From NCBI GenBank assembly GCA_911728435.2, contig OU452198.1:1860001-1924000 (forward strand): a DNA stretch of 64,000 bases. The letters run 5' to 3'. This DNA is from Apoderus coryli. Its lineage: Eukaryota > Arthropoda > Insecta > Coleoptera > Attelabidae. Each line of letters begins with the position of its first letter. Positions within the stretch are counted from its first letter, which is position 1. This document shows positions 3,037-48,038 of this stretch, piece by piece. The translations under genes were made by a program, and so were the position numbers. The notes under the pieces are model-generated. The model searched no databases, had not been told where the DNA came from, and saw nothing but the letters and a program-made list of their open reading frames with translations.

Positions 3037-3214
3037 TACGGCGTGGTACACAATTGGTGGTATGCCTACCTTAGATGCAGTGGCGGCTTGTCCTATGAAG
3101 CAAGTGAAGCAAATAATCAGTAAAATTAATAATATTTAAGTATTTAATTTTATTTTATTGTGTAATTATTTTTCTCCATAAATAATTTAAACTATAAATT
3201 AATGTATACTTAGT

Positions 3215-4265
3215 TTGCAACCTGCTTTACCGTTTGATGCAGTCGATTTTTTAAAGGGTGTGCAAAGTCCCAGCGCTAGCTTTTTTCTTACTCCAGTCAC
3301 AGAGCATGAGGTTTATTCAGTTATAAATAGTATTAAATCGTCAACTGCAAATGACGTGTATGACTTGAATTCTGTTTTGATTAAAAATTCTGTGGATATC
3401 CTTGTTGTGCCTATGACCAATTTGGCAAACTTATGTTTTACTACCGGTACTTTTCCCGAAAGATTTAAACTAAGTAGAATAACGCTTGTGTCCAAGAAGG
3501 GCGATTGCTCGGGTAATTACAGACCAATATCAATTACTGTAATCTTCTCTAAAGTCATTGAGGTACTCCTGAAAAATAGCCTAATAGAATATTTTGAAGA
3601 ACATGACCTGTTTGACTCTGCTCAGTTTGGTTTTCGATCCGGACGGAGCACGGTCAAAGCAGTGTCGGATATTGTGGCACGCATAGTTGATGCCTTTGAG
3701 CGGGGGGAGCACGCATCGTTGATGGTGTGTGACCTTGCCAAGGCGTTCGACTGTGTCTCGCATACTATTCTTTTGGAAAAGTTGCATTTTTACGGTGTGA
3801 GAGGTGTTCCTTGGAATCTTATAAACTCCTACCTCACTCGTAGACAACAGTGTGTTAAAGTGGGAAATATTGAGTCCATCGAGGTTGACGTCAAGCACGG
3901 TGTGCCCCAGGGGTCGGTACTGGGTCCCCTGTTTTTCGTAATATACATAAACGATATATGTTCTTACATGAACGACAACTGTCGCTGTGTATTGTTTGCT
4001 GATGACACGTCCTTTTTAAGCACATCGGGTGTGTTTGAGAATCTCAACATTTTGTCTCGGGATGTCCTGGAAGCAGCCGAAATCTGGTTCTCAACAAATA
4101 ATTTACAATTAAATTGCAACAAAACTAAACAAATTTGTTTTTCTAGTAACCCTAAATTTGCTAGTAACGACTCTTGCAAAATACTTGGGATTGTTGTTGA
4201 TGGCGGTTTGAATTGGGCTGAACACGTGAGTCGAGGGGCAAGTTACGTCATTACTAGCACTCTTT
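3215..4265 (+). pseudogene. Non-LTR retrotransposon reverse transcriptase (jockey/CR1 group), truncated
   Basis: Central part of a retrotransposon ORF2 that would copy element RNA into DNA. In order: finger region with NYRPISI, palm motif A in VCDLAKAFDCVSH, motif B in HGVPQGSVLGPLFF, the catalytic FADDT box, and the start of the thumb with ILGIVVDGGLNWAEHV. The frame is open for about 350 codons. The endonuclease and the first part of the reverse transcriptase are missing at the 5' side, and at about 4266 the sequence passes directly into a pogo transposase C-terminus, so the 3' end was lost too. Clade placement is from motif style only. Confidence 0.85.
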
Positions 4266-4267
4266 AT

Positions 4268-4654
4268 AAGGACGACCTTGAAACTAGCTTAAAGGAAAAG
4301 GAAAGAAAGGAGTCGTTAAAAAATTAAAAAGGTGTTAAGAGCTTAAAGGCTTAAGCCAGTGTAAAACAAAGAGCACAGGTAAAGCTACAATAAAAAAGTT
4401 TAAAACAGTGAAAAAGCACACTTTGGTTGATGATTCATCCAGAGATTCCGGCGATCATCCTGTATTTGATGACGATTCTGACATGGACGCCAATGATGTG
4501 GATGTAGAGTGTTTCTTTTGTAATGGTCTATTTTCGGAGGATGTCAGAGGAGAACAATAGATCAGATGTAGAAAATGCTCCCGATGGGTGCACGAGGAGT
4601 GTGCTAATAGTGATAAAAAGAAAGAATACATTTGCGACATTTGTTTGAAGTAAA
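4268..4654 (+). pseudogene. Pogo-type transposase C-terminus with zinc finger
   Basis: A Lys/Glu-rich segment (EKERKESLKN), a Lys-rich stretch, an acidic Ser/Asp stretch, and a C-terminal PHD-like cysteine/histidine module: CFFC, CRKCSRWVHEEC, CDIC. This tail is typical of insect pogo/Tigger DDE transposases. Stops interrupt it: one at about 4326, others in the Lys-rich part, and a TAG inside the finger where relatives usually have Trp. It is fused upstream to a reverse transcriptase fragment and lies 260 bases before a second pogo element that has the opposite, N-terminal part of such a protein; the two may be remains of one family. Confidence 0.65.
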
Positions 4655-37330: not shown

Positions 37331-37609
37331 AATATTTTGCATGTTGGTTTTTAGTGTTAAAAAAAATTAAAACTAATTTGATAACATCGGAGTATTTTGA
37401 ACATGTGGGCATCTCCCGCCTTGTATATCATCCGATTCAAATTGATCAAATATTAATTTTCATATAAACTGCGCAGTATTAGCATTTCAAAGAGCAGCCT
37501 TAATCAACTCTCAGGTTGCTCGATATAATGAACAAATTGAGCGGCACAAAATTGTTATTATTAATATTTTTTTATTCACTTATTAAGATTTGAAACTAAT
37601 TGCTATTGC

Positions 37610-38053
37610 AGATAGAGTTACTAGTATACCCAACGAAGTTACTGAATTGTATTTTCATTGTCTGTCTCAGCCGACTCAAACACAACCAGCAGCACCGCAG
37701 GAGTCAATTAACTATCAACAAATAATAAATCTTCGACAACGGCATCATCATCACCTAACTAACGTAATGCCGGCCAGTTTTCAACAATTGGGCGATCTAC
37801 TATATCCGAAGGTGTATAACTTGCACCCAACATTTGCCGGACGCACGACTTGGAATTGTCACCAGCAAAGTTATTGGTTATTGGTAATGGCGTCCGAGGA
37901 CTCACTGCGAGAAAAAGTTGAGGAGGCCGTAGAATTGATTTTGGCTCATACACATTCACAAACAGAACATAGATTTGATGCTCCACGAGCTGAAGAAGAT
38001 AATGCACCATTGTTTTACTGTCCTGGCCAATGTTTTCAGAAATTCATAGTAAG
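37610..38053 (+). CDS. Probable internal exon of an unrecognised host gene
   Basis: An open stretch of about 148 codons bounded by a good acceptor (TTGCTATTGCAG) and a good donor (GTAAGT after ..CATAGTAAG). The protein starts RVTSIPNEVTELYFHCLSQ, has a Gln/Pro/His-rich middle, then NLHPTFAGRTTWNCHQQSYW, an amphipathic helix (EDSLREKVEEAVELILAHTH) and DNAPLFYCPGQCFQKFIV. The mixed, non-repetitive composition and codon use differ from the element debris around it. I do not recognise the family and see no neighbouring exons on this strand within the window, so introns would be long. It might also be a retained fragment of a duplicated gene. Confidence 0.55.
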
Positions 38054-39854
38054 GTAAGTTATTTGAGAATTGATTTTAGCACTGGTGTACTCTAGATGAG
38101 AGAGAGATAAAGAGAGAATCAAAAATTCACAATTTTTAGTGAATAGACAAAAAGCGGTATAATTTTTTAATTAAAATTCCGGATCAAAGAACGTGTATGT
38201 GAAAAACATAAATGGAAATCATTTTTGGAATTTATTGTAGGTACATAGGGCGAAATATAACGCCGGTATATAACGCAACAGTCAGCAATAAAGTAGTGGC
38301 TTTTATCGATCTTTTTTTTTATACATAATATTCCTATCTTGTACCATATGCTTCGGGAAAATAAATATTTTATCTATCTAAACTTTTTTTTAATATACAA
38401 GGTGAACAAACTTAGTCGGAACTATGATGGCTATAACTTCTTTATTATTGAAGCTACGAGGTCATTTAATTTAGTGATCTTGTAGCAAGTATTTTCGCGC
38501 GGATTAACGTGATTCTAACAGAAAAACAATTGAACAATACGTTTGTGGTTTATTTAAAATGTTTTTATTTTTTACAGGACATCCTATATGTTTATACGCG
38601 AATCAATTGCTAACTATTTTCTGAACATAAAAGGTTATTACCCATTTTATCCTTAAACAAGGCATAACAGAGTTATGAGGCTATTTCGCCTTTCGTCTAG
38701 GTTGCCATGAAATTTAAAATAAAAACAAATTATATCAAATCGGTTGCTTGATTTATTGTTAAGTTGTAAGAGATTGTGTTCAAGGATTTTTGTTTGTTAC
38801 TCATGTAGGGACGCGTTACTCACGTAGGGACGCGTGCGACAATCAAACCAATTAATAAAATATTTCCCTCACTCAATATTGATTTCCTAGAACGAATTCT
38901 GTCTATTACAGGCAAAATTATCATTACTGGCCTAAGGGGGACCTTGTACGAAATATTCCATGTAATCCATAGATACGTTTCGGGGATGATTAACGTTACT
39001 TAATACCATTTTCTTATTATGTTTCCTAAACTGCACTTTTTTGCATTTTTCTGATTAAAAAAAAGGTCAAAAATCAAAGTACCTTGGCCTAGGATTTTGA
39101 AATTTTACACACCTACTCAACCTTCCATTCTGAACTTTTCTTAATGACATTTTTGCATATCTCGTCTGAAAAGGTCACAGAAAATGTTTTTTGAAAATTT
39201 CTCTTTTTTACGTCACAAATTACATTCAAACCAAGCAGGAGCGTAAATTCCGACTCAAATATTTTTTTGGCATTTATAAGAGTCTCAATGAGATTGAGAT
39301 GCCTATGACTTCTGTAAATGGGCCCCACATACCCTGTCGGCAACTTAGTCCTTCAAGAGTATGTCCCTATATCAAAATACGTGAATTAGCGAGAGCTTTC
39401 TGGGGTTGGTCTTCAAAATGCCATGTACGTAGGTAGACTTTAATTAATACATACCCGAAGAAGGCAAAACTATGCCGAAACGTTGTAGAATACAAAAAAA
39501 AAATGAAAAATCGACAACATGTTTTAATGTAAAACATTTCAAATCGAGTTTTGCATTTTTAATATGGAACCAACACCCAAAGAAATTTAATAAATTGATT
39601 TGATGGTCCGAGGTTCAAAAAATTAAAATTGAGAATTAAAAAAAAGGAATCAAATGTCCTAAAATATACTTGGTGTTCCATTTAAACAGTTTGTACCATA
39701 TAGTCTAAACGAAGCCTCTCAACAAATTTCGAAGGACGACACTGTATGCGTATTTGCCGTACCTATTAAAAGTTTCTTTAGCATGTTTTTAAAATTTACT
39801 GAAATAAGGAAGTTATTTGATAAAGTAAATTTCGATGATATTCAAAAATCACCA
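38054..39854. other. No gene; short repeats
   Basis: Contains a tandem pair ACTCAYGTAGGGACGCGT at 38799-38835 and, at 39455-39481, CCGAAGA-A, stem GGCA/TGCC, GAAAC, a diverged member of the ribozyme-like motif family on the plus strand. Stretches resembling mariner ends lie near 38400 and 38590. Confidence 0.5.
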
Positions 39855-39875
39855 CACACAAAAAAATCTATGGTC
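39855..39875 (+). repeat. Left terminal inverted repeat of the SAMD3-like unit
   Basis: 21 bases, matching the reverse complement of 47375-47395 at 19 positions. Confidence 0.7.
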
Positions 39876-40450
39876 CAATTGAACCTATTAGAGTCAATCT
39901 GAACCTTGCTTAGTCATGAATAGGAGCAAACCAAAGGTAGTGTCAAACTGAACCTAAGCTTATGGTCACAATATAATCATATGTTAGTTTTAGTTTGAGC
40001 TTATCATTATAGTCAGTTTGAAAATACTGATTGCTTCATTTTGATTCTATGTATAGATTCGAATTGACATTAAGATTATGGTTAAATTGCTAATACTGAT
40101 ACATCAATTTAAAACTCAATAAGTTCAAAATGAGAATATATTAGGTCCAATTTGATGTTAACTTCTAATCATTTTGATAATAAATATATGTTAACTGACA
40201 TTAGTTTATAGTTAAATTGATAAAGTGATATACTCAATTTGAACTTATTTATTATCAAATTGATTACAGGTTAATATCAAATCGAAACTAATAATTTCCC
40301 AATTTGGTTTTAAATTGATTCTAGCTTATGATCAAATTGAAAATAGGTAGTTTTAATTTGATAATAACTTATAGGTAAATTGACTATAGTGAAATGTCAT
40401 GTTGATAATAGATTGAATAATTCGAAACATATATTATATTCAATTTGAAT
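39876..40450. repeat. Left subterminal motif array
   Basis: About 19 near-copies, in both orientations, of TCAATTTGAAC or its complement, e.g. CTCAATTTGAACTT near 40230, ATCAAATTGATTAC near 40255 and TTCAATTTGAATC near 40437. Confidence 0.65.
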
Positions 40451-40811
40451 CTAATGATTTTTAAAATAACTCTTGGATATTAGTACCCGAATTAAAACGA
40501 GTGAAATATTTTCTTTTTGAGTATTTTTCTATTAGAATTATACGAACCAATATCAAATCAACCAATTTTTTTGTATTGGTTTTTATAATTATAATACAAG
40601 AAATGAACTCAAAAAATAAATATATCACTAGTCTTAATTATTTGTATATAACCAAGAATTAATTTTAAAATCATAGGATTATAGACAAGCACTAAAAGTT
40701 AATGAAATGCTGTTATTAGGTACTACCTACCATACTTATTCAATCAAATCAACATTTAGTATAGCATGACCGTTATTAAGTTTTTTTTATATTTCATATA
40801 TTTACTTTATT

Positions 40812-43800
40812 TTAAATATAAAATAAAACAAAAATATAACTTAAATACGTATATTTCAAAATAATAAAAATTAACATATATATAATATATATAGGTACAT
40901 AAGTATATATCACTTTTTGTATAAGTGTCCATATATATTCCGACTGAACCGGATATCTTGCGGATACCACATGAAAAAACTTGAACAATATATCGAATGC
41001 TTTCTTGCCACTTGAAAATTGGTACCTAACAGTATCCACTACTACAAAAAAGGTTTGAGGTTCCTTGATATTTTCGGCAACTACTAATAAGTATGGTTGA
41101 ACACTTTGTTTTTTAGCTGCCGCCCTTTCACGTATTGTATCAACCACACTGTTAATTTCTGCAGCACTCTAAAATATAAAAATCACAACGCAATTTTACA
41201 TAATATATAATAACAAATGAGCAGAAAGTAAGAACTACATTTGAATTTTGATTGATATTAGTAGTAAAAGTGTTATACCGGGTGTTGCAGAACAAATGCA
41301 AACCATTTTAAGGTGTGATTCTTTATTGGAAATAAAGGGTAGTTTGTCTTATAAATGTCACTTCAAACTTCACCCTTATGGAGTTATCGGACCGCAAAAA
41401 TGGCGGCAAATTTCAGTTTTTAATTTTTTTTAAATTAAAGAAAAACAAGAGAATGCTAGAGGTGAGTTATCAGTATATAAACTATACCTTTGCTTGCACT
41501 ATTAACCCTTCCTGAGCTTCTAAAATGGAAAATTTCCACACTTCCTTTGCTTCCTTGTTTACTACACGTCCTTTTGGTGGAATTAAATAAGGAATTAAAC
41601 ACAATTCTGCGACAAATCTACCGTCTGAAAAAGAAAACAAATTTAGAATTATTTTTTAAATCAAAATGTCTAAATATCGTAGAATTATGATTTAATAATC
41701 ATCACTGGAAAAGGATTTATATTATGCAATATACCTGCATATTACTAGACTCACCTTCATTAGATATGGTACTTAAACTGTCGATTTCAGTCAATGTCGA
41801 TTGATTGGTTATATTGCCAATTCGATTAAAAATTAATTTTTCTACAAACTTAGGCCACTTCTGATACAATGCCAGAACCGAATCTGGATACAGGGATTCA
41901 AAATCAGATGTAATCTGAAATGTAAAAACTATATAAATATAGAATTTTTATTTTATTACTATTGGCTTTATTTACTAAATTTATAACTATTCTTATTAAG
42001 TGACAGTCAAATGCAGTAACTAACAATATTATGTAATCACGGCGTTTGCACCACAAGATACTTAAGTATACAATATGTTTAAATCAAAAAATCATGTCAG
42101 ACATGTTTCGAGACAAATAAGCCTAATCATCAGTGACACAGGTACATCAAATAATCCGTGTTTAAAATTGAAAATAGAATATATTCACCCTTTGAAAAAA
42201 AAATAGAGAGGGTTAAGAAATCATTAAAAACTAAGACCATTATTAACTTCGTCGTTCATATCATGACAGCTCTGCCATGATATAGTAAGTTATAGTTTAT
42301 TTCAGAAAGAATAACTATATAGGTATGATGTATGATTGCGACATAAGCAAAAATACATATAAAAAGGCATGGCGTTGAAGTAATATATTGAAATTCTGAA
42401 TTCTGAGTATTGGTATAGATAAAAACTGCAATGTGTATAGAAGTCATCAAAATAAACAACACGCTCAAATAAGTATACCTTGACTTTCATTTGTTACAAA
42501 ATTTGTCTGAGATCATCATCTTTAACTTAAAAAATAATAATAAATTTTTAGGAAATAGTCCATACTACTGTGGATGTCCAATTACTCGGAAAGCGACAGC
42601 ATTTTTTTTTCCGAATAATAGATAATAAATATTTTAGAAATAAAACACACGTGAGAATCAAAGTCAAATCCACATATAATATAAATATATTACGGATCTA
42701 CTTTGAGTTGATATGGATAATATCTATGAATTAAATTATAAATATGTTCAAAATAATTGTCTTCAAACTTTAATGCTAGAGACACATAAGAACAATTAAA
42801 ATTTAAGAATTAATTCTAACCAATCAGAGCAGTATAGCATTTGTTTATATACCGTACTGCATTCTGATTGATTAAAATTAATTCTTAAATTTTAATTTTT
42901 CTTATGTAGTATCCCTAGCATAACACAAGGAGACAACTTTGAACATATATTATTACTTTTGTTGGACAGGACCATCTTAGACACATTTTGCAATAAATAC
43001 ATATATTTAATGTACTTATTTCAAAATGTTGATTTTTATGCATGGTTAAAAAAAGATCAACCTAAGGTCAATCTCTAGTTTGATATATACCATACCAGAA
43101 ATTCAGCACGTAGAGTATACAATATTGGCCAATATTCCATAAATTGGTCGATGGAACTAGTCCTGGTCTTTCTTCGTATACTAAATGTCTTCTTCCACTT
43201 GTCGAGAACCTCTGTCCAAGGTTCGGTGTTTATTTTTAGCCTTAAGATATCATTATCGAAGTCCGTTTCTACAAGTGCAAGTCAGGATTAATAAATTTTG
43301 ATTTTTGTATATGAGATATATAATAATCACCATAGCCTCTTTCAACTTTTCAAAAAATGAAATTATGAACCTTAGTGCATGCATTTATTGGTTGTATAAC
43401 CTAATTTTAACAAATTGACCTTGAAAACACATGCCAAGTTTCATAACAAATTCCTGTTTTGAAAAGTTGAAAATGATTTGGTTACATTGTTTTACCTGTT
43501 TTATCACTGACTACATTTGGATCTTTGTTGTCATCATTAATCTCGGAAGTATAGTTAATTTTCCGTTTTTTTCTTAACGGAGTAGCCTCATCGCACCTTT
43601 TAACTACGTTACGCACTTTATTTACCAATCTACCTTGTTGGTAAACAGATTGTGAGCTTGTTCCACCTCTCTTACGTGCAGAACAAAAATATTCCGCTGC
43701 ATTCTCATTTGGGAATAATTCTACGATTTTTTGCGTTATCCGTTCGTATTCAAAAGGCCTTAACCTGCTAAATATATTAAAAAAAAAGATCATTATATAA

Positions 43801-46800
43801 TACATATTATGTACTTTCTATACAATATTTAGTGACTGTATGTTGTATGTTTATATATACTGAGTATTGTATGAGCGATGTATGTTACTTACTGAATAAA
43901 GATTATTATTATATAAGGATAAGTGAGATATATATCATATTATAACTTGATAATATACAATTTAATATTAATATTGGAAAACTCGTTTTACCACTTCACC
44001 AAAACACTTTTTTAAATTTCGATACGTGTTTAGCCACTACGAAACAAATTTAACAACGTGTTTTGGTGAAGTGAAGACTTTTTCAATATTACTCTACGAT
44101 AAAGCTTCTACTCATCGACTAAAATTCAAGTTTAAAATAAACTATAATTAAATATAAATATAAATATAAATCAACCGACGCGACGTCTACTCCACAAAAG
44201 CATTTATGTATATGTCAAATCGTGATCGGGATATAAGTGCTAGACATGTTTCGGAATATCATTCCATCATCAGTGGCTCAATATACATAGTTACGCAATA
44301 TATATAACAATTAAAGTCAAACTGGGCATGGAATTCAAACATCTATACACATCCTGTGGAAATGTTTAATAATGTAATATACTAAACATTTTTAAAATTA
44401 AAACAAATTATTCAATGAATTTAAGAATAGGTATTGAAAAATTTTTTTCGTAATTCAATGAATAACATGTTTTAATTTTCAAAATTTTTAGTACATTACA
44501 TTCATAAAATTTCCACATAATGTCTGTATATATATGATTGAATTCCATGCCCAGTTTGATAATGAAAACAAATAATTATTATTCGACATTGGATATAAAA
44601 ATAGTAGTTGACGTATAGAGATAGATAGAGAAAGATAAGTAGGTATTTCTTACTATTTTATGATACGATGGTATATGTGTCGCACGATTATTTCCACTAG
44701 CCTCTTGCTATGAGTATCGTTTAGGACGTTATTTTTTTCATAATAATTTAAAACAGCTTTGCCCATGGGTGAATTTTCCAGAATACTTCTTAAATCAAAC
44801 TCAGGATAACTGGAAGTATTCAGAATATCCGATATAGATATGTCGAAAAGCTGATCGCTCTGATTATCAACATATTCAATTTCAGTGACTGTGCTGGCCA
44901 CAGACGTAGAAGGTGATGACAGTCCTCCTACATCGGTATTCAATTCATTAATTTCCTAAAAAATACAAATGTTGCTCGTTTTATAGGAAGCAGATCTGTT
45001 AAGATAAGAGATAACCATACAGGGTGATTGCGGGTCGATGGTACATGAAAAGTTTTGGAAAAAGTAAGCATAAGATTGTTTTGAATATGTAAGTGGTTAC
45101 TTAGGTCAACCTACTCTATCAGTCTATAATATTGCCATATTTGTAAGATTTTGAATATTTTGTTTTAACCCTTCCCTATAACTATCTTCAACTATTTTTG
45201 AATAAATAATTTATTTTGAATTTTGTGACCCAAAACAGATCTCCGAAAAATATTCGTCATTTCGTCATCTGAATGAAGACAACCCCAAAATTTTAAAGGT
45301 AGTTCAAGGACATCTAAGGAAAGTCAACTATCTTGACAGATTGACCCATGAGATTACAGGGTAGTCGCAAGTTACTGTAGTAGTATCTACTACTAAAAAT
45401 AGAAACAAGTCAAGTTTATCAAATGGAACACCCTGTATATTATTTAATATTCTGAAGGACAAACAAATTGCGTTTCAAATAATATGGCATGTTCCTATCC
45501 CTGAATAGAAATATTTCTGAAATGAAAGCAAGTTTATAGAAAAATTGGATTATTTTGATATATTTTAAGTAGGTAACACGACAACATTTCACAATAAGCC
45601 CATCAGGCTGCACTGAAACCGGGGACTCATGTCGCACGGACCCTTATACAAAAAAAAAGTAGGTAACAAGTCACATTTAAAATCTAACTATTAAATCGAT
45701 TTTTTTTATTAACGAAGAAAACGTCTTGAGAATAATTACTCGAATGAAGTTTTAATGAACTTGTATATTATACACTTTGTAACGTGACAAAATTGTAGAA
45801 AAATCAACGTATCTTTATTAACAGTGTTAAAAAAACATTAAGTTTTCTTCATCTGAGGTCATAGCCTTCGCTAAATATCGCTTTTTGTTCAGTTTTCACC
45901 CTTTATTCAGAAATTATTTTGTATTCGTGCAAATTTCCTCATGTTCATTGGTTAATTTTGTCACAATTCCAACAAATAATAAATACATAAGTTCAATAAA
46001 ACTTAATTTGAGTAATTATTTTCTTCTATTTTAATCAATTTCACGACAATTTTCGTCAATAAACAACAAACGTTTTATTTGCTATGAACGAAATGTTAGG
46101 TTATTCTAATGTTTCGTGACGTTTAATGACATTTCATTGCTACATAATTATATAATACACCTACCAAAATAATAAAAATTTTCTAAAAACTTGCTTTTAA
46201 TCGAAAACTTTTTTTTGCGAAAAACAGAAGCTTTTATCAAAGTGAATTTTTAGCCTATTATTTGTTCTCGTGGGACATACTGTATACAAAGCATGTTTCT
46301 GTTTAACACTTTAAGTAAGTAGGTAGATATAATTTTATTACATAGCGATAACATTAAAAAATTTCAACATACCAAATAAATTTTCTGTCGCAGTCTTACT
46401 CTCGCGCCAACAGAAGGAACCAATTCTTTTAGGAAGTTTTCGTTTAAGTCTTGCAGAATATCCGGCGTAATATCATTGTCTTAAAAAAAGAAGTATGTAC
46501 TTCATTACTTTACCAGCTAGGTACCTCTAAGTATAGTTAGTTTTACGAAAAGAATATAATAGAAATCAAAAAGCGGGGGACGCGGGACCATGCCGGTACT
46601 TTGCACCCTTCGCACTTGCTAATAAAATTCAATACTAATATTAATATTATTTTCTATCATATTAATATTATACCACCATGCCTTTTTAATATAAAATATA
46701 TCAAAAATTATTTAGAAAAAGAAATCGTATTGTAGGTAGGTACTTACCCAAGAATCTCGAGATAATTTCTTCTGTACAATTCCAAGCTCTCAGAAGTGCC

Positions 46801-46805
46801 TCCAT
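40812..46805 (-). CDS. SAM-domain protein, SAMD3-like; intact eight-exon gene
   Basis: Exons (minus strand order): 46805-46748, 46479-46373, 44955-44654, 43767-43496, 43268-43096, 41914-41755, 41624-41488, 41168-40812. All introns are GT..AG and every phase agrees, giving 521 residues without a stop. Residues 1-55 are a SAM-like protein-interaction domain (TEEIISRFLDNDITPDILQD, LKELVPSVGARVRLRQ). Then a Ser/Thr-rich linker, a helical segment (FDLRSILENSPMGKAVLNYY), YERITQKIVELFPNENAAEYF, a basic stretch PLRKKRKINY (possible nuclear signal), EPWTEVLDKWKKTFSIRRKT, a WP-containing segment, and a C-terminal domain (FFVVVDTVRYQFSSGKKAFD..FFHVVSARYPV). This order resembles vertebrate SAMD3 and the many SAMD3-like proteins of arthropods; role unknown. 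The last about 30 residues are Ile/Tyr-rich, read from AT repeats, so the true stop may have been lost. Confidence 0.75.
42095..42138 (-). other. Hammerhead-like motif in an intron, best copy
   Basis: Minus strand: TGTCA, CTGATGA, TT, stem II AGGC/GTCT, C, GAAA, CATG, TC, TGACA. Stem I (TGTCA/TGACA) is five perfect pairs and the predicted cleavage site follows GTC. CCAC lies 54 bases to the left of the GAAAC complement. Confidence 0.5.
42774..42920. mobile_element. Foldback MITE in intron
   Basis: Ends TGCTAG and CTAGCA; arms of about 60 bases (AATTAAAATTTAAGAATTAA) are inverted around a 20-base centre. Inserted in the intron between the fifth and sixth exons of the SAMD3-like gene. Confidence 0.7.
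43992..44073. repeat. Inverted repeat, 16-bp arms
   Basis: CACTTCACCAAAACAC at 43992-44007 is exactly reversed at 44058-44073; 50-base spacer. In an intron. Confidence 0.8.
44240..44277 (-). other. Hammerhead-like motif in an intron
   Basis: Minus strand CTGATGA, T, stem II GGAAT/ATTCC with a 3-base loop, GAAACATGTC. Stem I pairing is weak here. CCAC 56 bases to the left. Confidence 0.45.
44317..44559. mobile_element. Foldback element in intron
   Basis: Ends TCAAACTGGGCATGGAATTC and its inverse; arms of about 100 bases, AT-rich centre. Between the third and fourth exons of the SAMD3-like gene. Confidence 0.7.
45018..45437. mobile_element. TACAGGGTG-ended MITE in intron
   Basis: Starts TACAGGGTGATTGCGG and ends GGAACACCCTGTA followed by TA; 420 bases, non-coding, in the large second intron of the SAMD3-like gene. 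Confidence 0.6.
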
Positions 46806-47059
46806 AAGTATTATAGGTATATGGATAATTAGTTTATTATAATCCAATTTAACACAATCACTTGCACTTACTACACAAAATATCCAGGGTAATAAAATAT
46901 AAAAATCTCACTCTAAAACACCTGTAATCCCTAAACTTGTAACCTGTGACCTATGACCTGTGACTACGAACTGCGAATCGCAAATCGAAACGCAAGGAAT
47001 AAAGCCGCCGAAACCAAAATATTGTAAAGTCCCGATAATGACGTCACTGCATTAGTTTC

Positions 47060-47370
47060 AATTTGAAAATATTTTAGGATCACAATGTACAGGTATCGTC
47101 AGTGTGACAATAAATATGCTTTTATCTGGTCAGATTGAACACAATTTTTCAATTTATCGTTGAATTGACTTTATTTTTTAATGATAGCCATATGCTCAAT
47201 TTGAGCATTTAATATTTTCATTTAAATATTATGATGTGATTGAATTGAACTTAATATATAATTGATCAGTGACTATAACGCTGTGTTTGTTCAGATAATA
47301 TCTAAGCGGTAAAATGAAACTTAGTGTCGTCTATTTGATGTTATTTTTTTGAACATACTGGTATTATCAT
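47060..47370. repeat. Right subterminal motif array
   Basis: Six or seven near-copies of TCAATTTGA or TGAATTGA, e.g. TTTCAATTTGAAAATA near 47067 and GCTCAATTTGAGCA near 47192. Confidence 0.6.
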
Positions 47371-47374
47371 TTTT

Positions 47375-47395
47375 GACTATAGACTTTTTTGTGTG
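47375..47395 (-). repeat. Right terminal inverted repeat of the SAMD3-like unit
   Basis: GACTATAGACTTTTTTGTGTG on the plus strand; counterpart of 39855-39875. Confidence 0.7.
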
Positions 47396-48038
47396 CATGT
47401 ATCTCGAAAAATAAACAAATCCTCAAAATAATCGAATTTGGGACACCCTTTATTGATCAAGATTATCATAATATCACAGCATAAAAACAGCATTCTGATT
47501 CTCCGGTCACGAGGCGTCATGCGCATCTAATCGCGCATGATGACGATCTCTCCTATAATGGCAGCATGCGCGACGAGATGCGCATGACGCCTCGCAATCG
47601 GAGAGTTAAAATGCATGCAATGCAGAGTTTATTGTCGGCGTGTAAGAGATAATAGATAAAAAATTCATAAAAACAATTTAATTATATGGTGAAATTTGTA
47701 ATGTTTATATTAGATTAGTGTCCTACGCCAAAGATTCTACTCATCGATTATTTATTTTAGGTAGTTTATTTATATATTAATATAACCAAATTTATTTGTT
47801 AATTTTTTGACAGTCTTAACTGCCTATAAAACTCTGCTATTCTGTATCATGTGACAAAAATCACTCAATCATATCAATGATAATTTTTTACTAAATATAG
47901 TAACCAATCAAATTACATAATTTTTAGTCATGTGTCAAATTTCATCCAATCACCTCTGGATTACAGCGATAATACCCTACATGTGGTGTTTTTTTTATTA
48001 AAAATTAATTAAACGTCAAACTGACAACTGGTTTAAAA
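47396..48038. other. No gene; contains a GC-rich hairpin
   Basis: Apart from the hairpin at 47499-47605, AT-rich with no coding signal. Confidence 0.45.
47499..47605. repeat. GC-rich inverted repeat
   Basis: Perfect 19-bp arms CGAGGCGTCATGCGCATCT at 47510-47528 and 47576-47594, extended by CTCTCCG complements; inner part also holds TCGCGCATG and CATGCGCGA. The flank ATATCACAGCATAA..AACAGCATTC recurs at 49225-49262, so it belongs to a dispersed element. Confidence 0.75.

Follow-up and report, generated by a model that had tools for sequence, protein, structure and literature searches.

The window analysed here is a stretch of 64,000 nucleotides of the genome of the beetle Apoderus coryli (contig OU452198.1, positions 1,860,001 to 1,924,000, or C1:1860001-1924000 in the 428 Mb and 129 contigs that were searched). 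Its positions 39855-47395 hold a 7.5-kb unit with inverted ends that encloses a SAMD3-like gene. The gene comprises eight exons on the minus strand, from 46805 to 40812, with GT-AG borders throughout and phases 1, 0, 2, 1, 0, 1 and 0, and reads as 521 codons. By alignment to relatives, exon 1 (46748-46805) contains the start codon and the first part of a SAM domain and exon 2 (46373-46479) contains its second part; exons 3 to 7 follow at 44654-44955, 43496-43767, 43096-43268, 41755-41914 and 41488-41624, and exon 8, at 40812-41168, carries below about 40905 a new 3′ tail of about 30 codons. The first-pass annotation, made from the letters of the window, had described an intact gene of 521 residues. 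The eight exons, the agreeing phases and the lack of stops stand, but residues 492 to 521 or so come from reading across a deletion junction near 40905, and only residues 1 to about 491 represent the family protein.

SAMD3-like is the name used in that annotation and is a label rather than a demonstrated whole-protein homology to vertebrate SAMD3; no vertebrate sequences were among the relatives from two protein searches, each over the best 8,000 or so candidates. With the 521-residue protein, the Pfam search gave only DUF4358 (E 0.01, below the cut-off) and the PDB sequence search gave 0 matches, and little or nothing was found in viral contigs searched with P0016, A3 and A2 or in prokaryote genome contigs searched with A2. 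The whole-protein structural model matches PDB entries at the SAM domain; outside this domain it matched nothing convincing in a search that barely tested the remainder, and the protein was dropped as a candidate DDE enzyme.

The terminal inverted repeats (39855-39875, plus strand, and 47375-47395, minus strand) differ at 2 of 21 positions, as had been noted from the window, and form a repeat pair of 24 nt at 88%; the element begins with 5′-CACAC and ends with GTGTG. Allowing up to 2 mismatches, the end pattern occurs genome-wide 72 times forward and 70 times reverse, against 11 and 13 for the reversed control, many of the 2-mismatch matches belonging to an unrelated repeat. Among the matches listed, 65 have 0 mismatches, and 58 of these pair as 29 inward-facing pairs. 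Comparison of the flanks defines a CA duplication at 39853-39854 and 47396-47397. Identical 2-bp flanks at the same breakpoints were observed in 19 of 19 elements, namely the window copy and 18 fetched copies (TA 13, CA 3, TG 3), a set that leaves aside L024 and L025, whose right ends lie beyond the fetched stretch; three further longer copies show TA, TA and CA. The total is 22 of 23 elements (TA 15, CA 4, TG 3), always pyrimidine-purine, and the sole exception is L059 (C16:5722054-5722410), a miniature element of 357 bp that shares the terminal repeats and is flanked by TG and GT. Because 22 of 23 elements carry this duplication, the unit, which had been called transposon-shaped, is a DNA transposon with exact boundaries. 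A search with joined flanks against the fetched loci only gave no match spanning an empty site.

The first 546 bp of the element recur in at least 26 places over 545-546 bp at 99% identity or more, among 73 rows, and 12 of them, the window included, are identical; the number is a lower bound, with 40 of 54 candidates scored. Among 20 fetched copies, alignment is complete from one end to the other for 12, at 99.67-99.95%, and for two others at 98.7%; the remaining six are internally rearranged. The 12 near-identical copies differ from the window by 3-7 substitutions per 7.5 kb, and the 521-codon frame is intact in all of them, so the expected recurrence of SAMD3-like genes between the same ends is found at several loci. 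In the other eight the frame has 530 codons (L021, L026), 504 (L022, L023) or 514 (L024), or is incomplete or deleted (L025, L027, L028); L025 and L028 have a different C-terminus of 21 residues resembling beetle homologues. By the near-identity of its copies, the element is a recently active cut-and-paste transposon. A spread this recent needs no selection to keep the frame intact, and the intact frame alone therefore proves nothing.

Motif arrays lie inside both ends, in agreement with the first-pass annotation. The left array (39869-40453) contains 18 palindromic TATNNTCAAATTGANNATA-like sites (at least 11 of 15), the first of which overlaps the terminal repeat on its inner side, and the right array (47053-47343) contains seven sites at the same threshold with irregular spacing. 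With a seed motif picked by eye from the left end, 34 half-site matches were counted in the left 650 bp, of which the array fills about 600 bp (shuffle mean 2.0, maximum 6, 200 shuffles), and 14 in the right 420 bp, of which it fills about 300 bp (mean 1.2, maximum 6), while counts in the interior stay close to background (19, with 13.8 in shuffles). Full sites reach 28.1 per kb on the left and 17.0 on the right, against 2.2 (13 sites) in the interior. On the left, 16 of 17 spacings equal one to three times 21-23.3 bp, a regularity stated without a shuffle control.

The predicted DDE transposase is a separate gene of RAG1 fold, lost from the window copy and kept in longer copies. At window position 40905 or so, within the last exon, L024, L025, L027 and L028 contain 0.75-2.75 kb of extra DNA; the junction at 40904-40906 marks the loss of 2.75 kb, transposase gene included, that is present in L025. 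There, a second long frame starts about 0.2 kb past the end of the SAMD3-like gene on the same strand. In L025 a single stop and, further on, a frame break interrupt it, only parts of it remain in L027 and L028, and in the copy at C10:21755209-21765701 it is open over 814 codons. By comparison of end and transposase coordinates, seven elements with these ends hold transposase matches at 84-100% identity (C10, C11, C18, C13:13610073, C7:20628962, C5:36181674 and C7:39985119). The protein combines C2H2 fingers, a RAG1/Transib-type DDE core and a BAH-like C-terminus, and its RAG1-like model together with conservation points to a catalytic triad of D311 (79 of 80 alignment rows), D407 and E650 (both 80 of 80); C427xxC430 and H626xxxH630 are present in 80 of 80. 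The acidic triad expected by the first-pass annotation thus exists in prediction, but in this protein rather than in the SAMD3-like one, where it had been looked for in residues 150-521. The PDB sequence search with the transposase gave seven matches up to E 1, the best being a YY1 zinc finger at 0.012.

The two genes recur as a pair. Four transposase loci with 39-45% identity to this one were read over the 1.06 kb upstream, and a SAMD3-like last exon lies on the transposase strand in four of four (E 1.4e-53, 1.4e-40, 2.2e-40 and 4.6e-39), and the opposite strand has none at E up to 0.01. Genome-wide, 31 transposase matches extend to the N-terminus, and 24 of them are preceded on their own strand, at a distance of 14-418 bp, by a SAMD3-like last exon; none of the 55 SAMD3-like rows entered lies on the opposite strand within 3 kb of the 31 matches. 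The count took 65 of 68 transposase rows, leaving out three fragments of C1:22508090-22509250 that do not reach the N-terminus, and 55 of 85 SAMD3-like rows, 52 of which are last exons, the other 30 rows not reaching that exon. Both searches score the best candidates only, so absences are soft. Many pairs belong to one family and a few matches come from the same locus in pieces, which leaves fewer than 24 independent cases; gaps of 14, 21, 53, 116, 119, 165, 176, 214-216 and 418 bp suggest about nine groups. As assigned from the pairing listing with the element-end positions, the 52 last exons divide into 25 that precede a transposase match, 19 in deletion derivatives of this element and eight that stand alone, with no transposase match within 1.5 kb (C16:13525966, C16:14546494, C1:2194107, C22:9691888, C16:11582871, C7:2935355, C7:22464122 and C16:15344859), either derivatives of another kind or possible host genes.

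Gene models of other insects repeat the arrangement. In a weevil (P0036) a SAMD3-like protein (46% to P0001 over 315 residues) is joined to a nearly whole transposase (39% over 786), and in two Microplitis wasps (P0060, P0042) a SAM segment precedes the transposase; these are three of 120 proteins, the reversed-sequence control reaching E 0.024 at best. The fusions may stem from joining in annotation or reflect real alternative transcripts, and with either origin the genes adjoin in the same order. Separately, in a Brassicogethes gene model (P0013), SAMD3-like sequence is fused with a hAT-type DUF4371 protein, possibly by a nested insertion or an annotation join.

We consider it probable that the unit arose recently by internal deletion from a two-gene cut-and-paste transposon belonging to the CACTA/EnSpm-Mirage-Chapaev-Transib (CMCT) assemblage, with the SAMD3-like protein as the proposed end-binding partner of the transposase; the SAMD3-like gene looks like an accessory gene of the element, one of the options raised in the first-pass annotation. 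In the model, the full element carries the SAMD3-like gene, about 0.2 kb and the transposase gene in one orientation. The SAMD3-like protein would bind and coat the palindromic arrays inside both ends, spaced by about 22 bp on the left, and oligomerise through SAM contacts. The oligomer would then recruit the RAG1-fold transposase and join the ends with it, in the manner of TNPA and TNPD in maize Spm, and would be required for transposition. A SAM exon common to both products, hinted at by the wasp models, could provide direct contact between partner and transposase. The window copy would produce the partner only and would need transposase in trans from longer copies. A bolder extension, which we regard as tentative and doubtful, makes the SAMD3-like protein the subunit that assembles the ends in a large group of animal transposons, in which a SAM polymer on palindromes phased at about 22 bp, with a SAM exon also spliceable onto the transposase, would build a filament-like synaptic complex around a transposase of RAG1 fold that carries a BAH part; on this view vertebrate SAMD3 would be a transposon subunit that has been domesticated.

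Several observations weigh against the proposed partnership. A SAMD3-like exon was not detected within 1.5 kb upstream of 7 of the 31 transposase matches, and 8 of the 52 last exons have no transposase match beside them and do not belong to a copy of this element. No clear purifying selection is seen on the frame in recent copies (L025 has 4 synonymous and 9 non-synonymous changes), and constraint was not demonstrated from substitution counts that are too few and too balanced. The miniature element has no 2-bp duplication, the right array is unevenly spaced and the left spacing has no shuffle control. No DNA-binding fold was identified, since the PDB comparison was unconvincing outside the SAM domain. 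Eph receptor SAM domains, which are not known to form filaments, score nearly as high as BICC1 in the structure match, and oligomerisation therefore does not follow from the SAM fold by itself.

That the SAMD3-like protein is itself the transposase, as proposed in the first-pass annotation, would suit its being the only intact gene found in the 7.5-kb copies, with its frame kept throughout the near-identical ones; however, the burst is too young for this to require selection, the model shows a SAM domain and no transposase match (in regions outside it poorly tested by that search), and the predicted DDE transposase is a second gene, deleted here and present in longer copies, so the proposal can hardly be right. 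Capture of a host gene by a non-autonomous element, that annotation's further option, is evoked by the name and by the lone last exons, but the same gene order beside divergent transposase relatives, here and in the weevil and wasp gene models, indicates an old transposon gene and makes capture improbable. A passenger or self-regulator, acting as repressor or silencing-escape factor and dispensable for transposition, is the reading favoured by the transposase matches that have no detected partner. It has precedents in the TET/JBP dioxygenases of EnSpm, Plavaka and other fungal elements, proposed to allow escape from methylation-based silencing (PMC12730594), and in TNPA, for which effects on promoter methylation and repression are described as well (PMC1636069). 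A structural role is the better fit to the close pairing on one strand that divergent families share and to the presence of arrays at both ends, whose first unit reaches into the terminal repeat; we hold the passenger reading to be unlikely while giving it some weight.

Members of the CMCT assemblage have a DDD/E catalytic triad with C(2)C and H(3-4)H motifs between the second D and the last E (PMC12730594). By conservation and predicted fold, all three features are found here and place the element within the assemblage. The suggestion of an undescribed transposon group thus holds at most in part, the assemblage being known. EnSpm/CACTA proper has a CACTA or CACTG terminal motif, whereas the motif here is CACAC. 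The element shares the 5′-CAC..GTG-3′ termini of that family but has a 2-bp instead of a 3-bp duplication (PMC12730594). Its transposase gave no match to Transposase_21 (tnp2, PF02992) up to E 10; among 52 relatives PF02992 appears in three at E up to 0.01 (best 0.0022) and DUF4218 in six. Plavaka elements have TGT..ACA or CATCA..TGATG ends and 2- or 3-bp duplications (PMC12730594), a range that includes the 2 bp found here, while the CACAC..GTGTG ends differ; the Plavaka domain PF18759 matches the transposase weakly (E 0.0025, 17.6 bits against a Pfam cut-off of 26.3) and is found in 11 of 52 relatives at E up to 0.01 (best 1.2e-5). TRC ends begin with CCC (PMC1636069, PMC4298943). SmTRC1, an animal CACTA-type element, has a 2-bp duplication in 7 of 14 copies and a second protein without transposase domain, SmTRC-PrA, which is reported to lack detectable similarity to other sequences (PMC1636069). 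The present element resembles SmTRC1 and its animal relatives in the 2-bp duplication and the second, non-transposase protein, but not in its CACAC ends. It is filed in none of EnSpm, TRC and Plavaka because the EnSpm duplication and CACTA motif and the TRC and Plavaka ends are missing. In Spm, motif arrays lie internal to each end and deletion derivatives are moved in trans; Transib makes 5-bp duplications. In maize, Spm requires both TNPA and TNPD, encoded in one transcription unit, and TNPD stabilises TNPA on the DNA (PMC1636069). Like En/Spm, the present element is a two-protein cut-and-paste element with CAC ends; unlike it, it has CACAC in place of CACTA, a 2-bp rather than 3-bp duplication and a SAM-domain partner encoded upstream of the transposase. 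The 2-bp duplication, and a SAM protein in place of RAG2, also separate it from RAG1/RAG2 and Transib. Among the papers listed from the openly licensed PMC literature, judged by titles and abstract beginnings, none describes a SAM-domain partner of an EnSpm/CACTA transposase or treats a SAMD3-like gene in a transposon, and an earlier description may exist; no paper in openly licensed PMC text was found that associates a BAH domain with a CACTA transposase.

SAMD3-type genes in insects may therefore belong to transposons and not to the host. It was proposed by the SmTRC1 authors that an animal CACTA element requires a DNA-binding partner of the TNPA type, but they found nothing related to their candidate (PMC1636069). 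Should SAMD3-like proteins act as that partner in insects, many genes now listed as uncharacterised or as SAM-domain proteins would belong to transposons, and the combination of RAG-fold transposase and SAM co-factor would offer a new system for studying the assembly of transposon ends. The near-identical copies imply very recent activity, which makes the proposal directly testable.

Elsewhere in the window, on the plus strand, an open frame at 37587-38057 encodes an MLLE domain (PF00658, E 6e-8) resembling the end of a poly(A)-binding protein and is possibly a processed copy, a Tc1/mariner-like frame (DUF4817, weak Tc3-type helix-turn-helix) lies at 1483-2421, and a reverse transcriptase frame (RVT_1) occupies 3203-4327.
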